Shown here in pieces: positions 6,237 to 39,668 of a stretch of 39,668 nt of DNA; within the stretch, counting starts at the first letter, position 1; every line of letters starts with the position of its first letter. Origin of the DNA: Acidobacteria bacterium 13_1_20CM_3_53_8. Lineage in GTDB: Bacteria > Acidobacteriota > Blastocatellia > Pyrinomonadales > Pyrinomonadaceae. The stretch lies in NCBI GenBank assembly GCA_001920415.1, contig MNJR01000115.1:57352-97019 (forward strand), read 5' to 3'. Made by a program: the position numbers and the translations under genes. The notes beneath the pieces are model-generated. The model had not been told where the DNA came from, made no database searches, and saw only the letters and a program-made list of their open reading frames with translations.

Positions 6237-6344
6237 AACAGGCGTACAAACGTGGTGAGTTAAGGCGACTTGCGGCCACGTAAAACAAGCAGCTAAACAG
6301 CTCGGCGAGTCTTTCCAGAAGATCAGATTTTAAGGATTTACCGA

Positions 6345-29670: not shown

Positions 29671-29707
29671 TCTTCTGACTCTAGACTGTTTTTCAGAGGT
29701 GCTGATT

Positions 29708-30811
29708 ATGTTTTTACAGAAATGGGTTCGTGAGCTGGTTGCTTTATCAATCGTGCTCATCTTGTCTCTATCAACTTTCGCGTTGGCGCAGCAGCAACCG
29801 GGACGACTGATTCCGCCGCCAGCACAAACTCCTAGCCCGCAACCATCGCAGACTCCAAGCCCGGAGCCTCAGAACGAGCCAAGCCCGCAGCCGCAGCCCT
29901 CGCCAGCCGAGCCGCAAGCCACGCCTTCGCAAGAAGCCACACCGGCGCAGGCCGCACCAGCGCAGGCCACATCTGCGCAACCCATGCCCGTTCTGTGGCG
30001 AGAGCCTTCGGACATCGCTTCGCGCAACCTTTATCTTGGGCCGGGCGGAGAAGATATGAAGCCAGACTTGACGAAGGTCACTTTCATACGTCAGGAGCCG
30101 AGAGGCCACACCACGAAGTATCGTGTGCGTGACGGTCAGGGACGTGTGTGGGTGGTGAAACTGGGCAACGAGGCGCAGTCGGAAACCGTCGCATCGCATC
30201 TGGTGTGGGCCGCAGGATATTTCACTGACATTGATTACTTCGTGCCGGAAGTTAAGATAGAAGGAAAGGGGACGGTTAAGAATGTAAGGTTCGAGGCGCG
30301 ACCCAAGCAAATCAAACGCTTCGATCAAGAATGGGATTGGGATAACAACCCGTTCGCCGGCACAAATGAGCTACAAGGTCTGAAGGTGTTCATGGTCTTG
30401 CTGAACAACTGGGATTTGAAGACTGCCAACAACCGTGTCCTCCTTGTGCACAATGAAGCTACAAACAGCGATGAGTTGCGTTACATCATCAGTGATCTGG
30501 GGGCGACTTTTGGGAAAACAGGCAATTTTATAACGCACAATCGTAACCAGCCCGGGGCTTATGCCGCAACCAAATTAATCAAGAGGATCGAGGGTGACCA
30601 CATAATCTTTGATTTCCGCGCCACGCATGACCAGATGCTTCGGAACGTCACTGTCGCTCAGGCAAAATGGCTCGGAACTCTGCTGTCACAGTTAAGCGAT
30701 CAGCAAATCGGCGACGCATTTCGCGCGGCAAACTATAGTCCTGATGAAATTCAGATACTAACGAAGTCCGTGCGGTCTAGAATAGATGAGTTGGTCAATC
30801 TTCCCGGATAG
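29708..30811 (+). CDS. exported kinase-like-fold protein, copy 1
   Basis: 367 residues from ATG 29708 (AGAGG eight bases upstream). A signal peptide (LVALSIVLILSLSTFALA) precedes a Pro/Gln/Ser-rich linker (about 25-95) and then a globular domain. Motifs recall atypical kinases of the HipA/FAM20/PI-kinase type: VWVVKLGNEAQSETV (K151, E155 and E159), then LLNNWDLKTANNRVL (D236, K238, N241, N242) and YIISDLGATFG (D263), like a catalytic loop and a DFG-type metal motif. No named family was recognised. The exported location would be unusual for an ATP-dependent enzyme, so a pseudokinase or binding role is also possible. It is the first of three tandem paralogues. Confidence 0.7.
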   Translation: MFLQKWVRELVALSIVLILSLSTFALAQQQPGRLIPPPAQTPSPQPSQTPSPEPQNEPSPQPQPSPAEPQATPSQEATPAQAAPAQATSAQPMPVLWREPSDIASRNLYLGPGGEDMKPDLTKVTFIRQEPRGHTTKYRVRDGQGRVWVVKLGNEAQSETVASHLVWAAGYFTDIDYFVPEVKIEGKGTVKNVRFEARPKQIKRFDQEWDWDNNPFAGTNELQGLKVFMVLLNNWDLKTANNRVLLVHNEATNSDELRYIISDLGATFGKTGNFITHNRNQPGAYAATKLIKRIEGDHIIFDFRATHDQMLRNVTVAQAKWLGTLLSQLSDQQIGDAFRAANYSPDEIQILTKSVRSRIDELVNLPG

Positions 30812-30866
30812 GAATCTTTTCGTCTACCGCTCTGTTTAGAATTCTTCGACGCGAAGGGGATAAAAT

Positions 30867-31952
30867 ATGTTCCGACGAAATAGGGTGCGCGAGTCGCTCG
30901 CTTTATCAATTGTGCTCATCTTCTCTCTGTCAGCTTTCGCAGTGACCGGGCAGCAACCGGGAAGACTAATCCCGCCGATGCCAGCACAAACTCCTAGCCC
31001 TGAGCCATCGCAGACTCCAAGCCCGCAGCCTCAGAATACTCCGGCACAACCTGCGCCTACTCAAGCCGAGCCGCAAGCCACGCCTTCGCCGGAAGCCTCG
31101 CCAATGCAGTCCGCATCTGCGCAACCCGCGCCCCTCTTGTGGCATGAGCCTTCAGATATCGCAGGGCTAGACCTCTATCTTGGGCCGGGCGGCGCGAACA
31201 TGAAGCCAGACCTGACGAGCGTGACGTTCATAGAAGAGGAGACAGGCGGATACTCTAAGAAGTTTAGCGTGCGCGATGGCGCGGGCAAGAAATGGATCGT
31301 GAAAATCGGCAACGAGGCTCAGCCCGAAACCGTTGCGACTCGTCTAATATCTGCGGTCGGCTACTATACGGACATCACTTATCTAGTTCCCAGCGTTGAG
31401 ATCAAGGGCAAAGGAACTTTTCAGAACGTGAGGTTTGAAGCGAGGCCGGATGATGTGAAGCGGCTAGGCGAGTGGAAGTGGGAGAGCAATCCATTCTCGG
31501 GCACGCGAGAGCTTCAAGGGTTGAAAGTGCTGATGGCTCTGGTGAACAATTGGGATTTGAAGAACGCTAATAACAGAATATTGAGCCTGCATAACGAAGA
31601 GACGGGCAGAGATGAATTGCGTTACATCATCAGCGATCTGGGCGCGACCTTCGGTAAAACAGGAGGCGTTTTCAATCGCAATCGCAACAGGCCGCAAGAC
31701 TACACGAAAACTAAATTCATCGTCGGCGTTAGAAACAACACCCTACAGTTCGACTATCACGGCAAAAACAGCGAGATACTTCAAGACATCACGGTCGAAC
31801 AGGCCAGATGGATAGGCGGGTTACTGTCGCATCTCAGCGACCAACAGCTTAACGACGCTATTCGCGCAGCAAACTATAGCCCGGCGGATGCGCAGCTACT
31901 GTTGGCGACCATCAAGGCGCGCATTGATGAATTAAAGAATCTTCCGGGATAA
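30867..31952 (+). CDS. exported kinase-like-fold protein, copy 2
   Basis: 361 residues with a Shine-Dalgarno (GAAGGGGA) before the ATG. The signal peptide and Pro-rich linker are close relatives of copy 1, including near-identical DNA around the TPSP repeats. The kinase-like residues are kept: WIVKIGNEAQPETV (K146), LVNNWDLKNANNRIL (D230) and YIISDLGATFG (D257). The family has no assigned function. It starts 55 bases after copy 1 ends and is probably cotranscribed. Confidence 0.7.
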   Translation: MFRRNRVRESLALSIVLIFSLSAFAVTGQQPGRLIPPMPAQTPSPEPSQTPSPQPQNTPAQPAPTQAEPQATPSPEASPMQSASAQPAPLLWHEPSDIAGLDLYLGPGGANMKPDLTSVTFIEEETGGYSKKFSVRDGAGKKWIVKIGNEAQPETVATRLISAVGYYTDITYLVPSVEIKGKGTFQNVRFEARPDDVKRLGEWKWESNPFSGTRELQGLKVLMALVNNWDLKNANNRILSLHNEETGRDELRYIISDLGATFGKTGGVFNRNRNRPQDYTKTKFIVGVRNNTLQFDYHGKNSEILQDITVEQARWIGGLLSHLSDQQLNDAIRAANYSPADAQLLLATIKARIDELKNLPG

Positions 31953-32218
31953 AGTCATAACGACTTTAGAGCAAAATTAGATTGAGTGTAAGTTGCGATC
32001 AATTCACCAGCGCATACCATAAAGAGCGCAGAGGAATTACAGAAGATTTTAAATCTCAGATCAGAAATCTCAAATTTGAAATTTCAAATCTCAAATGATT
32101 TTGATCTTCTCTGTTTATCTTCCGTGCTCTGGCCTGCGTTGTTGAAATGAACTTACCTTACGTTCGACCGAAAATTTGCTCCAGATTACACTGGCCCTCG
32201 CTCTGAAAGGTATAGACG
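31953..32218. repeat. gap with AAATCTC-type heptamer tandem repeat
   Basis: At about 32051-32095 the sequence is a run of degenerate heptamers (AAATCTC, AGATCAG, AAATCTC, AAATTTG, AAATTTC, AAATCTC). No gene was seen. It separates copy 2 from copy 3, so copy 3 may have its own promoter. Confidence 0.65.
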
Positions 32219-33184
32219 GTGTTTCTACAAAACAGAGTTCGCGGCATAGTCGCTTTGACGATTGCTCTAGCCTTGTGCCTCTCATCATTAACCCTGACTG
32301 CCTCTGCTAAATCGAAGAAGAAGATGCCAAGGGGCACGCCCATCTTATGGCGCGAGCCTTCGGACATCGCTTCGCGCAACCTTTATCTTGGGCCGGGCGG
32401 CGCAGCGATGAGGCCGAACTTGAGAAGACTAACTTTTATAAGTGAGGAGACGGGCGGCTATTCTCGTAAGTTTCGCGTGCGCGACGCATCGGGGCGCGAA
32501 TGGGTTGCGAAAATCGGGAAGGAAGCGCAATCGGAAACGGCTGCTGTTCGTCTGCTATGGGCCATAGGCTACGTGACGGAGATTAACTATCTTGCGCCGC
32601 GCGTGACTATTCCGGGCGAGGGAACTTTCGAGAACGTACGCTTCGAGGCCAGACCCAAAAGCATCAAGCGCCTTGATGAATGGAAGTGGGAGGATAACCC
32701 TTTCACGGGCACGCGCGCCTTTCAAGGATTGAAAGTGATGATGGCGCTTCTGAATAACTGGGACATGAAGAACAGCAACAACAAGATTCTATTCGTGCGC
32801 AATGGTCGGCGCGGCGGCGAGCTTCAATACATCATCAGCGACCTCGGCGCAACTTTCGGAACGTCCGGTAATGTGCCCATCTTCTGGCGCTTCACGCGCA
32901 GCCGCAACAATCCCGAAGAGTACGCGAACGCAAGTTTTCTTGAGGACGTTAGTGACAATCATGTTCGTTTCCATTATCACGGAAGAAAGAGCGGTGTCTT
33001 AGACGACGTCACTGTGACGGATGCCAGATGGATAGGCCGCCTTCTTTCGCAATTGAGCAATCAACAGATCAGAGATGCATTTCGTGCTGCCAATTATGAT
33101 GATGATGAAGTTCGGCTGTTGACTGAGGCCGTACGCGAAAGGATCAACGAGTTGGTCAATGTTTCAAGAGAAGCGCGCCGATGA
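32219..33184 (+). CDS. exported kinase-like-fold protein, copy 3 (no Pro-rich linker)
   Basis: 321 residues from a GTG start. It has a signal peptide (IVALTIALALCLSSLTLTASA) but lacks the Pro-rich linker of copies 1 and 2. The conserved residues persist: EWVAKIGKEAQSETA (K98), LLNNWDMKNSNNKIL (D182) and YIISDLGATFG (D208). A 47-base DNA stretch (around 32354-32400) is identical to copy 1. Its last four bases overlap the ABC exporter start (ATGA), so the two are translationally coupled. Confidence 0.7.
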   Translation: MFLQNRVRGIVALTIALALCLSSLTLTASAKSKKKMPRGTPILWREPSDIASRNLYLGPGGAAMRPNLRRLTFISEETGGYSRKFRVRDASGREWVAKIGKEAQSETAAVRLLWAIGYVTEINYLAPRVTIPGEGTFENVRFEARPKSIKRLDEWKWEDNPFTGTRAFQGLKVMMALLNNWDMKNSNNKILFVRNGRRGGELQYIISDLGATFGTSGNVPIFWRFTRSRNNPEEYANASFLEDVSDNHVRFHYHGRKSGVLDDVTVTDARWIGRLLSQLSNQQIRDAFRAANYDDDEVRLLTEAVRERINELVNVSREARR

Positions 33185-35069: not shown

Positions 35070-35609
35070 TTAGTTAGCGTGCGATACGGCTGCCGCCCCG
35101 GATGAAGGAGCGCTTTGCGCCTGTATGTGCTGCCCGTAATCTTCTACGAATTTCTTCAATGCTCCGTGTCCAAAGCGCGTGTAGAAATCGTAAGTCTTCA
35201 TCTCGCTGTACACCTGATCGAAGTTCCAGTGATAAAAGTTGAAGCGATAGACAGCGCCTATGACGCCTGTGCGATGACGCCCGCCCGCACAGTGCACATA
35301 AAATTTACCCGTAGCAGGATCATTGACTAGCTTCAGGAAAGCATCAATCTGCTCCGATTTCGGGTAATCCGAATCGCTCATAGGAATGTTCACATAACGC
35401 ATTCCCAGAAGCGCTTGCAGGTCTCTATAGTCCTGCTCTTTTGGCTGCGCTCCGCGATAAAAGCGCTCATCCATCTGACCGAAATTCTTGATGTGGACAT
35501 TCGTCAGACTATTCTGTGCAGGAACCTGTGCAACTGAAAGTGAGGCCAGCGCAAAAACGATAGCCATGATTGAGATTAGGGAACGTAAGGGGTTTGGGGT
35601 CAGACGCAT
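35070..35609 (-). CDS. exported tyrosine/dual-specificity phosphatase-like protein
   Basis: 179 residues from ATG 35609, which has AAAGGAG eight bases upstream; upstream in-frame codons are not needed. A signal peptide (SLISIMAIVFALASLSVAQ) is followed by a PTP-fold domain with FYRGAQP near 47, the general-acid region SDSDYP, and the active-site loop VHCAGGRHRTG (C107, R113). It should hydrolyse phosphotyrosine or another phosphomonoester in the periplasm. It converges on the ABC exporter and exported kinase-like genes. Whether it opposes them is inference. Confidence 0.85.
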   Translation of the reverse strand: MRLTPNPLRSLISIMAIVFALASLSVAQVPAQNSLTNVHIKNFGQMDERFYRGAQPKEQDYRDLQALLGMRYVNIPMSDSDYPKSEQIDAFLKLVNDPATGKFYVHCAGGRHRTGVIGAVYRFNFYHWNFDQVYSEMKTYDFYTRFGHGALKKFVEDYGQHIQAQSAPSSGAAAVSHAN

Positions 35610-36002
35610 TGCAGAATCTCCTTTGTAAAACATAAAAGTTTCTTCGGGATAATTTAAGAAACTGTCGGGGGCTACTGCACTTGTTGAAGACCAGATATTT
35701 TCAGACGGCACTCGAAGCTTTTTCGACCACAAGCCACACGATTTCCGACTGCTTGTGGGCGCTGTGAGGCATCCTAATTATGACCTGATTTTCAAGTTAA
35801 CCGACGAGGTTTTCCAGCACTTTGTCGGTCAAATATAAGATTCATTAATCGCCGCTAAGGTTGCATCTGAGGTCAATCAGAGTCCTCCGATTCCGCCGGA
35901 TTTACCCCTTCGTTTAGAGTCATGGCTCCGCTCCTGAAAGGGCGGCATGACGAGCTATTAAGTCCCTGTTCGAGAGTGGCTACAAAATCTCGGTGAAAGT
36001 AG
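35610..36002. other. gap between phosphatase gene and tRNA-fragment boundary
   Basis: 393 bases without a convincing gene. It contains one short inverted repeat, CCACAAGC (35727-35734) with GCTTGTGG (35751-35758). It is presumably the original chromosomal sequence downstream of a tRNA gene, and it includes the phosphatase promoter. Confidence 0.3.
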
Positions 36003-36004
36003 AA

Positions 36005-36034
36005 AAGCGCGCCTTAAACGATACAGGCGCGCTT
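36005..36034 (-). terminator. terminator following the tRNA fragment
   Basis: Stem AAGCGCGCC (36005-36013) with GGCGCGCTT (36026-36034). On the minus strand it is followed by TTTTC. Its distance of about eight bases from the tRNA 3' end fits a native tRNA terminator. Confidence 0.8.
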
Positions 36035-36482
36035 AACTTTTTGGCGGAGCCGACGGGACTCGAACCCGTGCGCTTCGCCGCCTTTGTGCCTTTTTCGCCC
36101 AATTTTCTACCCATTTACAGCCACCAAAGTCGATTGTTTGTAATGATTCATTATTACCACCATCTATACTAACTCTAGTAGGGTCATAATAAATATCATA
36201 GAGTCCCAACGTTATCGCCTTGGGAGAAACTGTAAAGGGAAGGTGTCCCCCGGCCTTTGCCCATCCCGGTATGCCGGGCTTGAACCTAGCATTATCTATT
36301 GGGGAATATGTACCGTTACCCTGAACGGTCATCTGAGGAAAAAACTGTCGGAGAGCATCTCGAAGACACCGTGACAGTTGTTGTCCATCTGTATCCTTAG
36401 CCCGCGCGTCGAATAATCCCACACGCCAACTCAACTGCGGGGGGCCGCCCTCGTTATCTGGCTTGAAGTAAGGGTACTCCAC
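36033..36482 (-). pseudogene. RHS C-terminal segment in a shifted frame, ending in the tRNA fragment
   Basis: A 149-codon frame from a GTG at 36482, overlapping the RHS gene end by 52 bases. The product (FKPDNEGGPPQLSWRVGLFD; LSRCLRDALRQFFPQMTVQG; LGLYDIYYDPTRVSI) reads like an RHS C-terminal extension. Its last residues RVRVPSAPPKS are merely the translated tRNA end. Either it is a separate overlapping gene, or, more likely, one indel separated it from the upstream RHS frame and the attachment site truncated it. The function of the tail is unknown. Confidence 0.5.
36042..36073 (-). other. tRNA 3' fragment (T-arm, acceptor strand, CCA): candidate attachment site
   Basis: Read on the minus strand, 36069-36042 gives T-stem ACGGG, T-loop TTCGAGT, CCCGT, then CGGCTCC, G and CCA. 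The 5' half, including the D-arm and anticodon, is absent upstream. G as discriminator is compatible with Ser, Asn, Asp, Glu or Gln; the identity cannot be settled. A lone 3' tRNA end is the usual product of integration into a tRNA gene. The geometry places the element to the right, with the intact tRNA expected beyond 39668. Confidence 0.8.
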
Positions 36483-38017
36483 GCCGATAAGCCTAATCCA
36501 AACGGCACAATTGCACCCTGCTCGTGCCTGAATCCGTTCTTATCATGGATAAGATATTCCACTGTGGCAGCACCAGTGTCCATCAAGTGAGCCGCTTCAG
36601 CACAATCGAAAGCTATACCGTTTAGAGCACAACGTCCATCGGGCACAGCAAATCCAGCCAGAAGTGAACCGTTACCTTGCTCTGTTGGAGTGCCGGGAGG
36701 ATTTGGGTCAACGAACGGGTCACTGTATCCCATGTTAATGCCCATAGGATCAGGTTCTATCTCTGCCTCGTAGTTGCCGTACTGGGATGAGAATCCGCGA
36801 GCGCCTGTTACAGGATTATCATGCACCCATAAGACTGCACTCTCTCCTGTGCCCATGTTGTACTCATGACGGGCTATGACCTCATCGCCTAGATAGACAT
36901 AACCCATCATCTTCTGCCCTTGATAGTTGATGTCTGCGATGACCTGCCCACCCAACACACTGCTTCTCAAATAATAAGTTACATCGCCTTGCCCTGTCCT
37001 CTTCACCACTTGAGAATCACCATCGAACGCTTCTGCTATGGCCTGAGTGTTATCGCTACTCTGTACTTTTAGATTATGCCCGGCAGAATCGTAAGTAAAC
37101 TGCATGTCCGGGTTCTGCAAGACGTTGCCTTCTGCATCATAGTGCCAGTTGGGATCAGGACCCTGCCCATTAGCAGCTTGCCTCCGGTTGTGAGAATCAT
37201 ACTGTACATTGAAGTAATCCGACTGACTCCAGTATCGGTTCTCTCGGCTGGTCATGTTGCCCCATACATCGTGCTGATAGGTTTGACGAAAAGGGCCTGG
37301 ATCGCCGTAATGAATGCCAGTAAGATAGTACCTTGCGTCTGCGCCGGAGTAAGCCTCTCTCATCCTGCCCATTTGATCGTAAGCGAAGGCTCTATCCAGC
37401 AGGTCATTCAAGTAATCGTGCGATGAGCGCAAGTTCCCGTCAGGCTCATAAGTGTAATCGTTGCTCACAACGGTGACGGGGCCACTCTGCGTCGGGGAGG
37501 TGAGTTGAAAACTCTGTAGTCGCAAACTAGCATCGTAGCCGATAGAGAGAGTTGTGCTATTGCCGTAAGTCATGCCTTTGGGAGCACCCCATGCACGATA
37601 CTGTATGTTAGAAGCAAACTGCGTAACGTTAGGCCAGCCCGTGCCGGTTACCTCAATTGCTCGTCCTATCGAGTCATAGTTATAGCCGACAGTCTGACCG
37701 AATGGGTCTGTTATCTTCTTCAACTCTCCACTGAGGTTGTAGTCATAGGTGAGAGTGAATGAACCGGACACGCCGCTGAACTGGCGAGTTTCGGATCGCA
37801 GTCGTGATTGTGTATCGTAAATGTAAGAGGTGCTGCCCGTGCTATCACTCATTGATATGCGATTGCCTACAGAGTCATAGGAATAGCTGACATCAGAGGG
37901 CAAGGGGATTGATGTGGAATCAGGAGTGGAATAAGTAATACCTGTTACCAGATGACGTGAGTTATAACTGTAGGTTGCACTTGCTCCTCTTGCGTCTGTT
38001 ACCCTGTTGCTGTGCAT
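36431..38017 (-). CDS. orphan RHS/YD-repeat tip without N-terminus
   Basis: 528 residues of YD repeats (YSYDSVGNRISMSDSTG, FAYDQMGRMREAY, WHYDAEGNVLQNPD) through an RHS-core-like end (YVYLGDEVIARHEY). After this comes a linker, CALNGIAFDCAEAAHLMD, and a short unrelated tail. A typical RHS protein exceeds 1000 residues and has an export or anchor region; here there is none. The ATG is eight codons after the lipoprotein stop, in the same frame, and has no Shine-Dalgarno. This is the pattern of a displaced C-terminal tip behind a complete rhs gene. It may be silent. Confidence 0.7.
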   Translation of the reverse strand: MHSNRVTDARGASATYSYNSRHLVTGITYSTPDSTSIPLPSDVSYSYDSVGNRISMSDSTGSTSYIYDTQSRLRSETRQFSGVSGSFTLTYDYNLSGELKKITDPFGQTVGYNYDSIGRAIEVTGTGWPNVTQFASNIQYRAWGAPKGMTYGNSTTLSIGYDASLRLQSFQLTSPTQSGPVTVVSNDYTYEPDGNLRSSHDYLNDLLDRAFAYDQMGRMREAYSGADARYYLTGIHYGDPGPFRQTYQHDVWGNMTSRENRYWSQSDYFNVQYDSHNRRQAANGQGPDPNWHYDAEGNVLQNPDMQFTYDSAGHNLKVQSSDNTQAIAEAFDGDSQVVKRTGQGDVTYYLRSSVLGGQVIADINYQGQKMMGYVYLGDEVIARHEYNMGTGESAVLWVHDNPVTGARGFSSQYGNYEAEIEPDPMGINMGYSDPFVDPNPPGTPTEQGNGSLLAGFAVPDGRCALNGIAFDCAEAAHLMDTGAATVEYLIHDKNGFRHEQGAIVPFGLGLSAWSTLTSSQITRAAPRS

Positions 38018-38041
38018 TGTTCTGCGGAATACACATTCTTG

Positions 38042-38788
38042 TTAGTTGCTGTTCGGTGGCTCTAAAAAATAAGGTTTGAGTTTCTGCCATTCTGATGGAG
38101 ATTCCAAACAGCCTTCCGGCAATAGTTGTGCACCTGGTTCATGGACAATAATCGCCTCAAGATACCGCTGCCGCGACGTGCGGCTATACCAGAATTCAAA
38201 GGCAATACCACCATTTAGATCATCCCAGAAGACTATGTCTCGACCGCCTTCAGCTTCAGTATGGTAGCCAAGTCGCACGAAGGACTGGAGGTTAGGATAC
38301 TGACGACGTATTTGGTCGGGCGAGCTGCTGGACGTGATCCCGTTGGCGGTCGCGTAGCGGTTTGTGGCCGCCACGATCTGAATGACACGCCCTTTGCTCA
38401 CATAAACATATATCCCATTCTGGACTTGGACATCGCTTTGCGTCTTCATGTAATCGAGCCAGTGCATCTGTGTTACACCCTCACAACATTGCTGAGGCCA
38501 GCAGGGCTGTGAGTATTGGTAGGTGTATTCATCGTAATACTTGTTGCCAAACACCGCCCCGAACACCTGTTGGGCGTACTCGCGCGTATCGCCTAGTTGC
38601 ACCGGGCCGATGCTACGCCCAGGAACGATCAGGGAGGAAGTCGCTTGAGATGTTGCATTGACCGTTGCGTTTTTAACTGCTTTATTGGTCGTTTGGTTCA
38701 TCGCAGGGTGACAGCTAGTAAGTAGCAGACCACTTAAACTTAGTGAAGTTACCAATCGCCTAAATGATGCGCTTCTATTTCTTATCAT
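38042..38788 (-). CDS. lipoprotein between RHS genes, candidate immunity protein
   Basis: 248 residues with a signal peptide ending in LLTSC, a good lipobox (C about 26), then a Thr/Asn/Ala-rich linker. The mature domain includes SLIVPGRSIGPVQLGD and VFGNKYYDEYTYQYSQPCWP, with cysteines in CWPQQCCEGV, and no catalytic motif I recognise. It lies 59 bases downstream of an RHS-type gene whose end resembles a peptidoglycan lyase. Envelope location is what would be needed to protect a cell's own wall. The immunity role is inferred from position and localisation only. Confidence 0.65.
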   Translation of the reverse strand: MIRNRSASFRRLVTSLSLSGLLLTSCHPAMNQTTNKAVKNATVNATSQATSSLIVPGRSIGPVQLGDTREYAQQVFGAVFGNKYYDEYTYQYSQPCWPQQCCEGVTQMHWLDYMKTQSDVQVQNGIYVYVSKGRVIQIVAATNRYATANGITSSSSPDQIRRQYPNLQSFVRLGYHTEAEGGRDIVFWDDLNGGIAFEFWYSRTSRQRYLEAIIVHEPGAQLLPEGCLESPSEWQKLKPYFLEPPNSN

Positions 38789-38847
38789 CCGACTCTCCTA
38801 CTCTCCTATTAAAGCTGATAGCTTTAATGCCCATTTGAGCAGGGCCT

Positions 38848-39668
38848 CTAAAAACAGTTCTTTGCGATAGCCAGCACATCAGTGACATAAGTTGGATTGC
38901 CGGGCGCAGTACCCCGGTCCAATATATTTACTCCCGCTTGACCATTTGCGATACGACCCAGCATGCGGCCAGTCGCTCTAACATGACCAGCATTATAACC
39001 CCGCAGGGCACCCGCTACGGCCAGCTCGGGGCCGAACTTCGTAAAGCTTTGAATTAAGCCAGCTACTTTAGCTGACGCCCTATCAGCCGCTGTTCCGGGA
39101 TCATAAGCCCAATTCCGCGCGTCAGGATAACTATGATCATCAAATTGGAATATCCCGTGACCGTGACCATGATCCCCGGTTATGTTTCTAAACCCCGTCT
39201 CTCGGATACCAAGAGCAGCTAAGATTCTCGGATCAATGCTATGTGCACCGCCCGCACGGGTAAGAATATCCCAAGCCGCCTTTGCTCGATTTATTGCATC
39301 TTGTGCCTCTTGTGGTTTTTTAAATCCTGCAACAGCCAAAGCATCTAAACAGGCTTGGCTAAGCTGCCCTTGTTGTGCAGTTTGTTGCGGTGCAGGGTTC
39401 TGCTGCGATGGCGGCGGAGTAGGAGTCTTCGAGGGACTCGGTATAGGGTTCTGCCCGTAGTTAGCAATCCAAGTCCAGAACCCACCAGTCTCAGCCCTGT
39501 TGACAATCACTACATCAAACGGGTCACCCTTGTCCGGCACTACCGTGCGGCTGCCACCAGAGCCGCTATCAACACGCGTGCCTCCATCATTATATGCCCA
39601 GTATCCTCCCCCATGAGGATTAGTCAGAAACATAAAATCCTCCAAAGGCATAGCTATACCATCCCGAG
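38848..39668 (-). CDS. C-terminal part of an RHS-type protein with transglycosylase-like domain (5' end outside window)
   Basis: The frame is open to the window edge; an internal ATG at 39651 would give 267 residues, but upstream codons are sense. It begins with DGIAMPLEDFMFLTNPHG, which parallels the post-core linker of the orphan RHS tip (NGIAFDC...). This suggests the visible part is the tail of a longer RHS protein. After a Pro/Gln linker (about residues 70-95) comes a lysozyme-like/lytic-transglycosylase-type domain: SIDPRILAALGIRETGF with a candidate catalytic Glu, GDHGHGHGIFQFD, and LRGYNAGHVRATG. It would cut peptidoglycan glycan strands. Two cysteines (CLDAL and the terminal NCF) could pair. 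Confidence 0.7.
   Translation of the reverse strand, partial: RDGIAMPLEDFMFLTNPHGGGYWAYNDGGTRVDSGSGGSRTVVPDKGDPFDVVIVNRAETGGFWTWIANYGQNPIPSPSKTPTPPPSQQNPAPQQTAQQGQLSQACLDALAVAGFKKPQEAQDAINRAKAAWDILTRAGGAHSIDPRILAALGIRETGFRNITGDHGHGHGIFQFDDHSYPDARNWAYDPGTAADRASAKVAGLIQSFTKFGPELAVAGALRGYNAGHVRATGRMLGRIANGQAGVNILDRGTAPGNPTYVTDVLAIAKNCF

Follow-up and report, generated by a model that had tools for sequence, protein, structure and literature searches.

A predicted goose-type lysozyme tip, a candidate immunity lipoprotein and a displaced cassette in a divergent acidobacterial Rhs locus

Rhs toxins are usually pictured as a shell built in the cytoplasm, from which an unfolded tip is threaded out. 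The Rhs/YD polymorphic toxins were catalogued by Zhang et al. 2012 (PMC3482391), and the consulted portions of that text describe features that the locus studied here also shows or is predicted to have: a conserved core, a variable C-terminal toxin, immunity genes and stand-alone cassettes. This locus lies at the right end of a 39,668-nucleotide stretch of DNA (the window; C86:57352-97019, contig C86 being 97,019 nucleotides long) from Acidobacteria bacterium 13_1_20CM_3_53_8, whose 6.1 Mb genome is assembled in 155 contigs. It probably represents the toxin end of a Sec-exported Rhs gene, together with its immunity gene and a displaced cassette that is now dead; the whole would mark one end of an element that integrated at tRNA-Asp.

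The pairing of a lysozyme with a periplasmic immunity protein is already known from Tse3/Tsi3, a muramidase effector of the type VI secretion system (T6SS) and its periplasmic immunity protein (PMC3792639, in part). As in the present locus, a toxin of goose-type-lysozyme/SLT fold has a periplasmic partner, which in the case of Tse3 inactivates the toxin; whereas Tse3 is delivered by the T6SS, the domain described here would form the cysteine-bracketed tip of an Rhs protein whose relatives are of Sec type. In the consulted portions, Zhang et al. 2012 also list a toxin of lysozyme-like fold that cuts peptidoglycan, Tox-Glucosaminidase, which is FlgJ-like and given for PVC and T6SS, unlike the domain found here, and the word disulfide is not found in them (PMC3482391). 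Bacterial teneurin-like proteins (PMC13018210, in part) resemble this lineage in their YD shell, their variable toxin end and, for some members, predicted Sec signals; they have a downstream immunity gene, for which the lipoprotein is the candidate here, and in BiTLP a C-terminal-domain cysteine is engaged in a disulfide. This disulfide joins the tip to the plug, whereas here two cysteines bracket the tip and tail cysteine counts are even. Disulfides are also described within the entry domains of contact-dependent inhibition (CDI) toxins (PMC9424206 and PMC11630599, both in part): the cytoplasm-entry domains of CdiA-CT place paired cysteines in the delivered toxin module, most having at least one pair, but in the entry domain and not around the catalytic domain. 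Within the open-licence PMC literature on such a bracket or on acidobacterial Rhs toxins, no account of the tip cysteine bracket was found among the matches listed.

The right end of the window is also that of the contig. The minus-strand frame at 38848-39666, 272 residues long and starting with RDGIAMPLEDFM, is therefore left open there and constitutes the 3' end of a gene that the assembly cuts. A paralogue in the same genome is the 2943-residue Rhs protein of contig C78, in which the Rhs core is followed by YARDGIALPLEDFMSM and then by a different tip. The junction pattern DGIAxPLEDFM follows directly on the core in this paralogue, and the same junction is found in the cut gene. The first 39 bases of the cut gene display 95% DNA identity with C78, while the proteins diverge past the junction, which is the pattern left by tip exchange. 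Judging from the C78 junction, the Rhs core of the cut gene would lie beyond the contig edge. The open reading frame (ORF) following the C78 tip is lipoprotein-like by eye. One candidate for the upstream part that is missing was an Rhs frame that leaves contig C12 at its edge; at 30% identity it is a more distant Rhs, and the join is unsupported.

The original prediction of a lyase-like C-terminus behind an RHS-like linker is borne out by this frame. Its label “transglycosylase-like” is better put as goose-type lysozyme. When A4, a three-sequence profile of the lysozyme tip, was used against the PDB, the top six matches were all lysozyme g (4.5e-9 to 8.5e-6). Glu156, Asp165 and Asp176 of the tip align with the Glu and two Asp of lysozyme g, positions that we take to be catalytic; the tip of strain SZAS-14, described below, has a Glu at the first Asp position. 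Catalysis takes a pair of acids in goose-type lysozymes and a single residue in lytic transglycosylases (PMC3792639, in part), which makes a hydrolase somewhat likelier than a transglycosylase. The tip is predicted on these grounds to be a goose-type (GH23) lysozyme. Tip searches also matched L002 in the same genome and L027, L028, L029 and L030, which are lysozyme-like, none being an Rhs protein, and ordinary proteins encoded on C18 and C71 of the same genome also have lysozyme/SLT-like domains. Searches of viral contigs returned no relative with the window tip and one locus (L174) with A4. The plasmid search gave no match, and the phage search gave 20 records, all from Streptomyces phages, at no more than 31.3% identity.

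The lipoprotein that the original prediction placed in the cluster is found at 38042-38788 (minus strand), with the lipobox LLLTSC and Cys26, and is likely to be the immunity protein of the lysozyme tip. At E 0.001, homologues occur in 5 of the 162 genomes of the class, its own included; in the four others, one is paired with a lysozyme tip, one (L038) stands beside an array of orphan Rhs tips and two are in ordinary places. The closest homologue (E 1.6e-18) belongs to G085/SZAS-14 (L036/L168) and is encoded 3 nt behind a second goose-lysozyme tip, ORFs being taken as called. The two tips are 27-34% identical and the two lipoproteins 24-30%; the second tip shares with the window tip the start motif CxDALAVAG and a near-end cysteine. 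A scan of genome contigs with A3 returned L168 alone. If the lysozyme crosses the periplasm of its producer, an inhibitor would be required in that compartment, and a lipoprotein suits this. The polymorphic-toxin arrangement initially proposed is upheld by the C78 paralogue, in which an Rhs core precedes the junction, and by the tip-lipoprotein pair of the second genome. The co-occurrence of lipoprotein and lysozyme, put forward as a check, gave a divided answer: the pair recurs in one genome, and the superfamily also exists without a lysozyme. Its members beside hemB and trp genes mean that the superfamily is not specific, though the nearest relative is paired. Profile matches to the BLIP/BamE group are weak (7txx (BA5), 0.003; 3d4e, a putative BLIP, 0.038; BLIP entries from 1). 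The structure model of the lipoprotein and its SZAS-14 homologue is too poor to use (mean pLDDT 41.4), and a Foldseek search with that lipoprotein model returned nothing at E <= 0.001.

On the minus strand, the 272-residue open frame is followed by the lipoprotein, a 528-residue Rhs core fragment and a tip remnant in another frame. The cut gene and the lipoprotein are 59 nt apart, and 24 nt separate the lipoprotein stop from the core fragment. The features of the locus are listed below.

38848..39666, minus strand: 3' end of the cut gene, read as Rhs, with junction RDGIAMPLEDFM, linker and predicted goose-type lysozyme tip
38860..39282, minus strand: predicted GH23 goose-type lysozyme domain, tip residues 129-269 (profile A4 against the PDB, 4.5e-9)
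39199-39201, minus strand: Glu156 of the lysozyme tip
39349..39351, minus strand: Cys106, first bracket cysteine
38854..38856, minus strand: Cys271, second bracket cysteine, penultimate residue
38042..38788, minus strand: candidate immunity lipoprotein, 248 residues, lipobox Cys26 at 38711-38713 (paired homologue L036/L168)
36431..38017, minus strand: predicted displaced Rhs core fragment, 528 residues, linker C-x8-C (Cys463, Cys472) around NGIAFD
36069..36482, minus strand: orphan-tip remnant in another frame, C-terminal part missing
36042..36068, minus strand: putative attachment-site scar, a 27-bp exact copy of the tRNA-Asp(GTC) 3' end
36001..36038, minus strand: hairpin then short T-run, perhaps an old tRNA terminator (fold z = -3.78)

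The 528-residue fragment matches PF05593 (6e-17) and the TIGR01643 YD repeat (2.1e-7), and is 49% identical to the C78 Rhs protein. It runs into the NGIAFD linker, and most relatives align from its residue 4-7, many of them inside far longer frames; by this alignment it is predicted to begin mid-core. Relatives of the core at E <= 1e-30 are found in 45 of the 162 genomes and 18 of 53 genera, with four core matches in a row on G076:C564 and five on G088:C18. From 86 ORFs with a core match, 20 were dropped (open end, tail shorter than 240 residues, or duplicate), leaving 66 closed frames; by regular expression, 6 have the canonical core end and 60 do not, one of the latter, L086, having it by eye. 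TIGR03696, the canonical Rhs-associated core end, has no match in the window core and the motif is missing in most relatives, which points to a divergent Rhs branch. The tip continues in the ORF at 36033-36482, which is open from about 36539, the frame break falling between about 36431 and 36539. The similarity of the remnant to its relatives stops between about 36144 and 36093, and past this point its frame reads through the tRNA-Asp copy. The related tips L081, L083 and L084 (38-46% identity) continue into an EExxH motif, while L077, of the same BLAST cluster as these relatives, has HExxH and a Pfam match to eCIS_core (8e-6); neither motif is seen in the window remnant. Where the original prediction saw an orphan tip lacking its N-terminus, the window holds instead an Rhs core and a tip of another family, frame-broken and without its C-terminal part. 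The motif said to be shared by the two linkers (RDGIAMP and LNGIAFD) does stand, as part of a wider C...(D/N)G...C pattern present in 24 of the 60 relatives. Displaced core and second tip together are best described as a presumptive former cassette, now dead, frame-broken and truncated at the attachment site.

The attachment site is suggested by the exact 27-bp copy of the tRNA-Asp(GTC) 3' end, of which the intact tRNA-Asp is found on contig C5. A tyrosine-recombinase-like ORF (L172 216-1316, on C5) lies 30 nt downstream of this intact tRNA; its best NCBIfam match has an E value of 1.4e-12, below the family cut-off. The window copy would mark the distal end of an element that integrated at tRNA-Asp, with C5 and C86 holding one end each. 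One intact tRNA-Asp with this 3' end was found (L169 1450-1526, on C5). Beside the scar, at 35070-35732 of the window, is encoded a tyrosine/dual-specificity phosphatase matching the Pfam family Tc-R-P (polymorphic-toxin phosphatase, 5.6e-9).

The Rhs shell of this lineage appears to be Sec-exported. By hydropathy, a signal-like N-terminal segment is present in all of the 15 long relatives examined (one of them canonical) and in the C78 protein, and 12 of the 15 plus C78 possess a GCGC motif. The C78 protein (L019, 3888-12719) is composed of a signal-like segment, a subtilisin-like domain (TIGR03921, 169.7 bits, below cut-off), the core and the tip, a succession predicted to form a toxin shell with a protease domain of its own. 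The partner encoded downstream of the tip has a hydrophobic N-terminus or a transmembrane segment in 53 of 60 cases, versus 23 of 79 other ORFs (Fisher p 1e-12), these calls being made from hydropathy and not by a signal-peptide predictor, with one start per ORF; 31 of the 53 are signal-like, 11 have a lipobox and 11 a transmembrane segment. A recurrent motif resembling P-L-x-S-T-R-x-x-V-x-x-x-L-G, seen by eye and with a loose pattern, is found in the partners of L061, L066, L073, L087, L090 and L105, which are perhaps one immunity superfamily.

The tips of this lineage share a further trait, a pair of cysteines defined as one Cys 100-230 residues from the end and one in the last 30. The window lysozyme tip fits this bracket, with Cys106 and Cys271 of 272 residues. 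With BLAST at E 1e-3 and single linkage, the 66 tips behind related cores form 43 clusters (44 with the window tip) and the 60 non-canonical ones 38, some of which may be remotely homologous to one another. The bracket is present in 55 of the 60 tips and in 34 of the 38 clusters; shuffling each tail 2000 times gave it in 12.3 tips on average and in 25 at most. The number of tail cysteines is even in 58 of the 60 (binomial p 3e-15); with a single tip per cluster, it is even in 37 of 38, and the even count holds at 55-58 of 60 for tail cut-offs from 200 to 340 residues. Without L086, 54 of 59 tips are bracketed and 57 of 59 have an even count. The core matches of all 86 frames contain 21 Cys in 30,869 residues. 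As a control, 30 canonical Rhs loci of the same class yielded 16 usable tails: the bracket is found in 6, no Cys at all in 7, and an even count in 3 of the 9 with Cys, the bracket frequencies (55 of 60 versus 6 of 16) differing with a Fisher p of 1.6e-5. L064, one of the canonical tips among the 66, has the bracket too.

Tips of several kinds are concerned. The bracket occurs in the M23 tips L073 (3e-17) and L110 (1.7e-21) and in L121, a weak GH19 match (0.0034), and L070, a weak Hydrolase_2 match (0.011), has the first bracket Cys and lacks the last; Pfam analysis of the tips of 20 relatives left 13 without a match at 0.05 and 2 with an implausible one. L040, a lysozyme relative that is not an Rhs tip, lacks Cys over its last 190 residues, and the Streptomyces phage endolysin L173 has a single Cys, at position 78 of 474, far from the lysozyme part, so that within this comparison the bracket goes with the Rhs context rather than with the fold. 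We infer that the tips behind the divergent core are disulfide-clasped. It is conceivable, and put forward here tentatively, that unrelated tips (goose lysozyme, M23, GH19-like, zincin-like and many others of no assigned kind) each acquired the same pair of end cysteines and are disulfide-looped in the periplasm, as an entry ticket to a Sec-exported shell. If so, only claspable cassettes would be loaded, stored and delivered, and exported immunity proteins would be needed. A tip closed into a covalent loop could not pass through as one unfolded strand, and delivery would then differ from that of tip-threading Rhs proteins. Sec-type signals, nearly Cys-free cores and tips bracketed whatever their kind would make oxidative folding a shared design rule, and the bracket together with an exported neighbour offers a sequence handle for envelope-acting toxins and their inhibitors in acidobacteria. 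In the orphan tips L036 (8110-9177) and L038 (9577-14367), a second linker type, W-Q-C ... F-Y-G ... H-C-Q, also holds a Cys pair.

By analogy with its relatives, the Rhs protein of the window would be exported and its tip would fold in the oxidising envelope. A Cys106-Cys271 disulfide, suggested by the family-wide bracket and the even Cys counts, would clasp the two ends of the lysozyme domain, and the released tip would cleave glycan strands in the peptidoglycan of rivals. Anchored so as to face the periplasm, the lipoprotein would bind and block the lysozyme, shielding the producer while the toxin is exported and against kin.

Other explanations of the same features have to be weighed against this mechanism. 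The lipoprotein may be an unrelated envelope protein that lies by chance between two Rhs pieces, as would agree with superfamily members located in ordinary operons without a toxin nearby, beside hemB (L037) or between trpF and trpB (L039), and with a homologue at E 0.001 in only 5 of the 162 genomes. We hold such a coincidence to be improbable, because the closest homologue among these genomes sits directly behind a goose-lysozyme tip having the same start motif and end Cys, because none of the other lysozyme-like matches obtained with the tip (L027, L028, L029, L030) is an Rhs protein, and because the lipoprotein gene comes directly after the toxin in a family where 53 of 60 tips have a hydrophobic or membrane partner. 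As to the cysteines, BiTLP provides a precedent for a C-terminal-domain Cys bonded to the plug domain (PMC13018210, in part), and the long relatives carry other cysteines, among them the GCGC motif in 12 of 15 plus C78, with which those of the bracket could pair elsewhere in the shell instead of clasping the tip. This alternative is unlikely, since a tail Cys that pairs outside the tail would be expected to leave an odd count there and the count is even in 58 of 60, and since one of the two cysteines lies near each tip end in 34 of 38 clusters. A third possibility is an Rhs/YD protein whose lysozyme end remodels the wall, as a surface or housekeeping domain, and is no weapon. It seems very unlikely: similar domains do occur in ordinary proteins encoded on C18 and C71 of this genome and in the relatives L027-L030, but BLAST divides the tips behind this core into 38 clusters, displaced copies occur in rows, and the lipoprotein is paired with a lysozyme tip in a second genome.

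Several observations, to which the ordinary operons above belong, weigh against a bracketed, exported toxin with its immunity lipoprotein. The cut gene's own Rhs core lies off the contig and is not seen, the Pfam match of the tip to Phage_lysozyme2 is sub-threshold (0.046), and the class search with the window tip at 1e-5 did not return G085, the second pair having surfaced through the lipoprotein. The bracket also occurs in 6 of 16 canonical Rhs tips of the class and a hydrophobic partner in 11 of 15, so that an exported partner is a wider trait and not special to bracketed tips; a first control counted 62 hydrophobic ORFs among 142, but included the partners themselves. No disulfide has been observed, and the structure model of the tip is too poor to use (mean pLDDT 42.6). 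One of the 60 tips taken as non-canonical, L086, is canonical by eye. Finally, the tips on which the bracket was counted are those on which it was first noticed, and held-out tips are few and mixed. L036 and the first tip of L038 are bracketed, the L038 frame having 5 Cys from its first start and 4 in the tail, and a further L038 piece has one Cys. Among 396 genomes of the phylum, with at most 3 candidates scored per genome, 25 gave a match at 1e-15, of which 5 lie outside the class and one of these is strong; this relative, L175, has 4 Cys and misses the strict bracket by one residue. The weak relatives are off the rule: L182 has no Cys, L184 two without a bracket, L185 one in a short tail, and L188, which is canonical, seven.

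Further features were observed away from the Rhs locus. A SAM_alpha riboswitch (44.7 bits), of a family named for alphaproteobacteria and here in an acidobacterial genome, is present at 6242-6317 of the window. Three similar tandem ORFs with signal-like N-termini are located at 29699-33184; one of them, checked against Pfam, has no match at 0.1. On contig C12, L041 (635-1362) displays regularly repeated peptides in spurious-looking ORFs, which suggests a CRISPR array.

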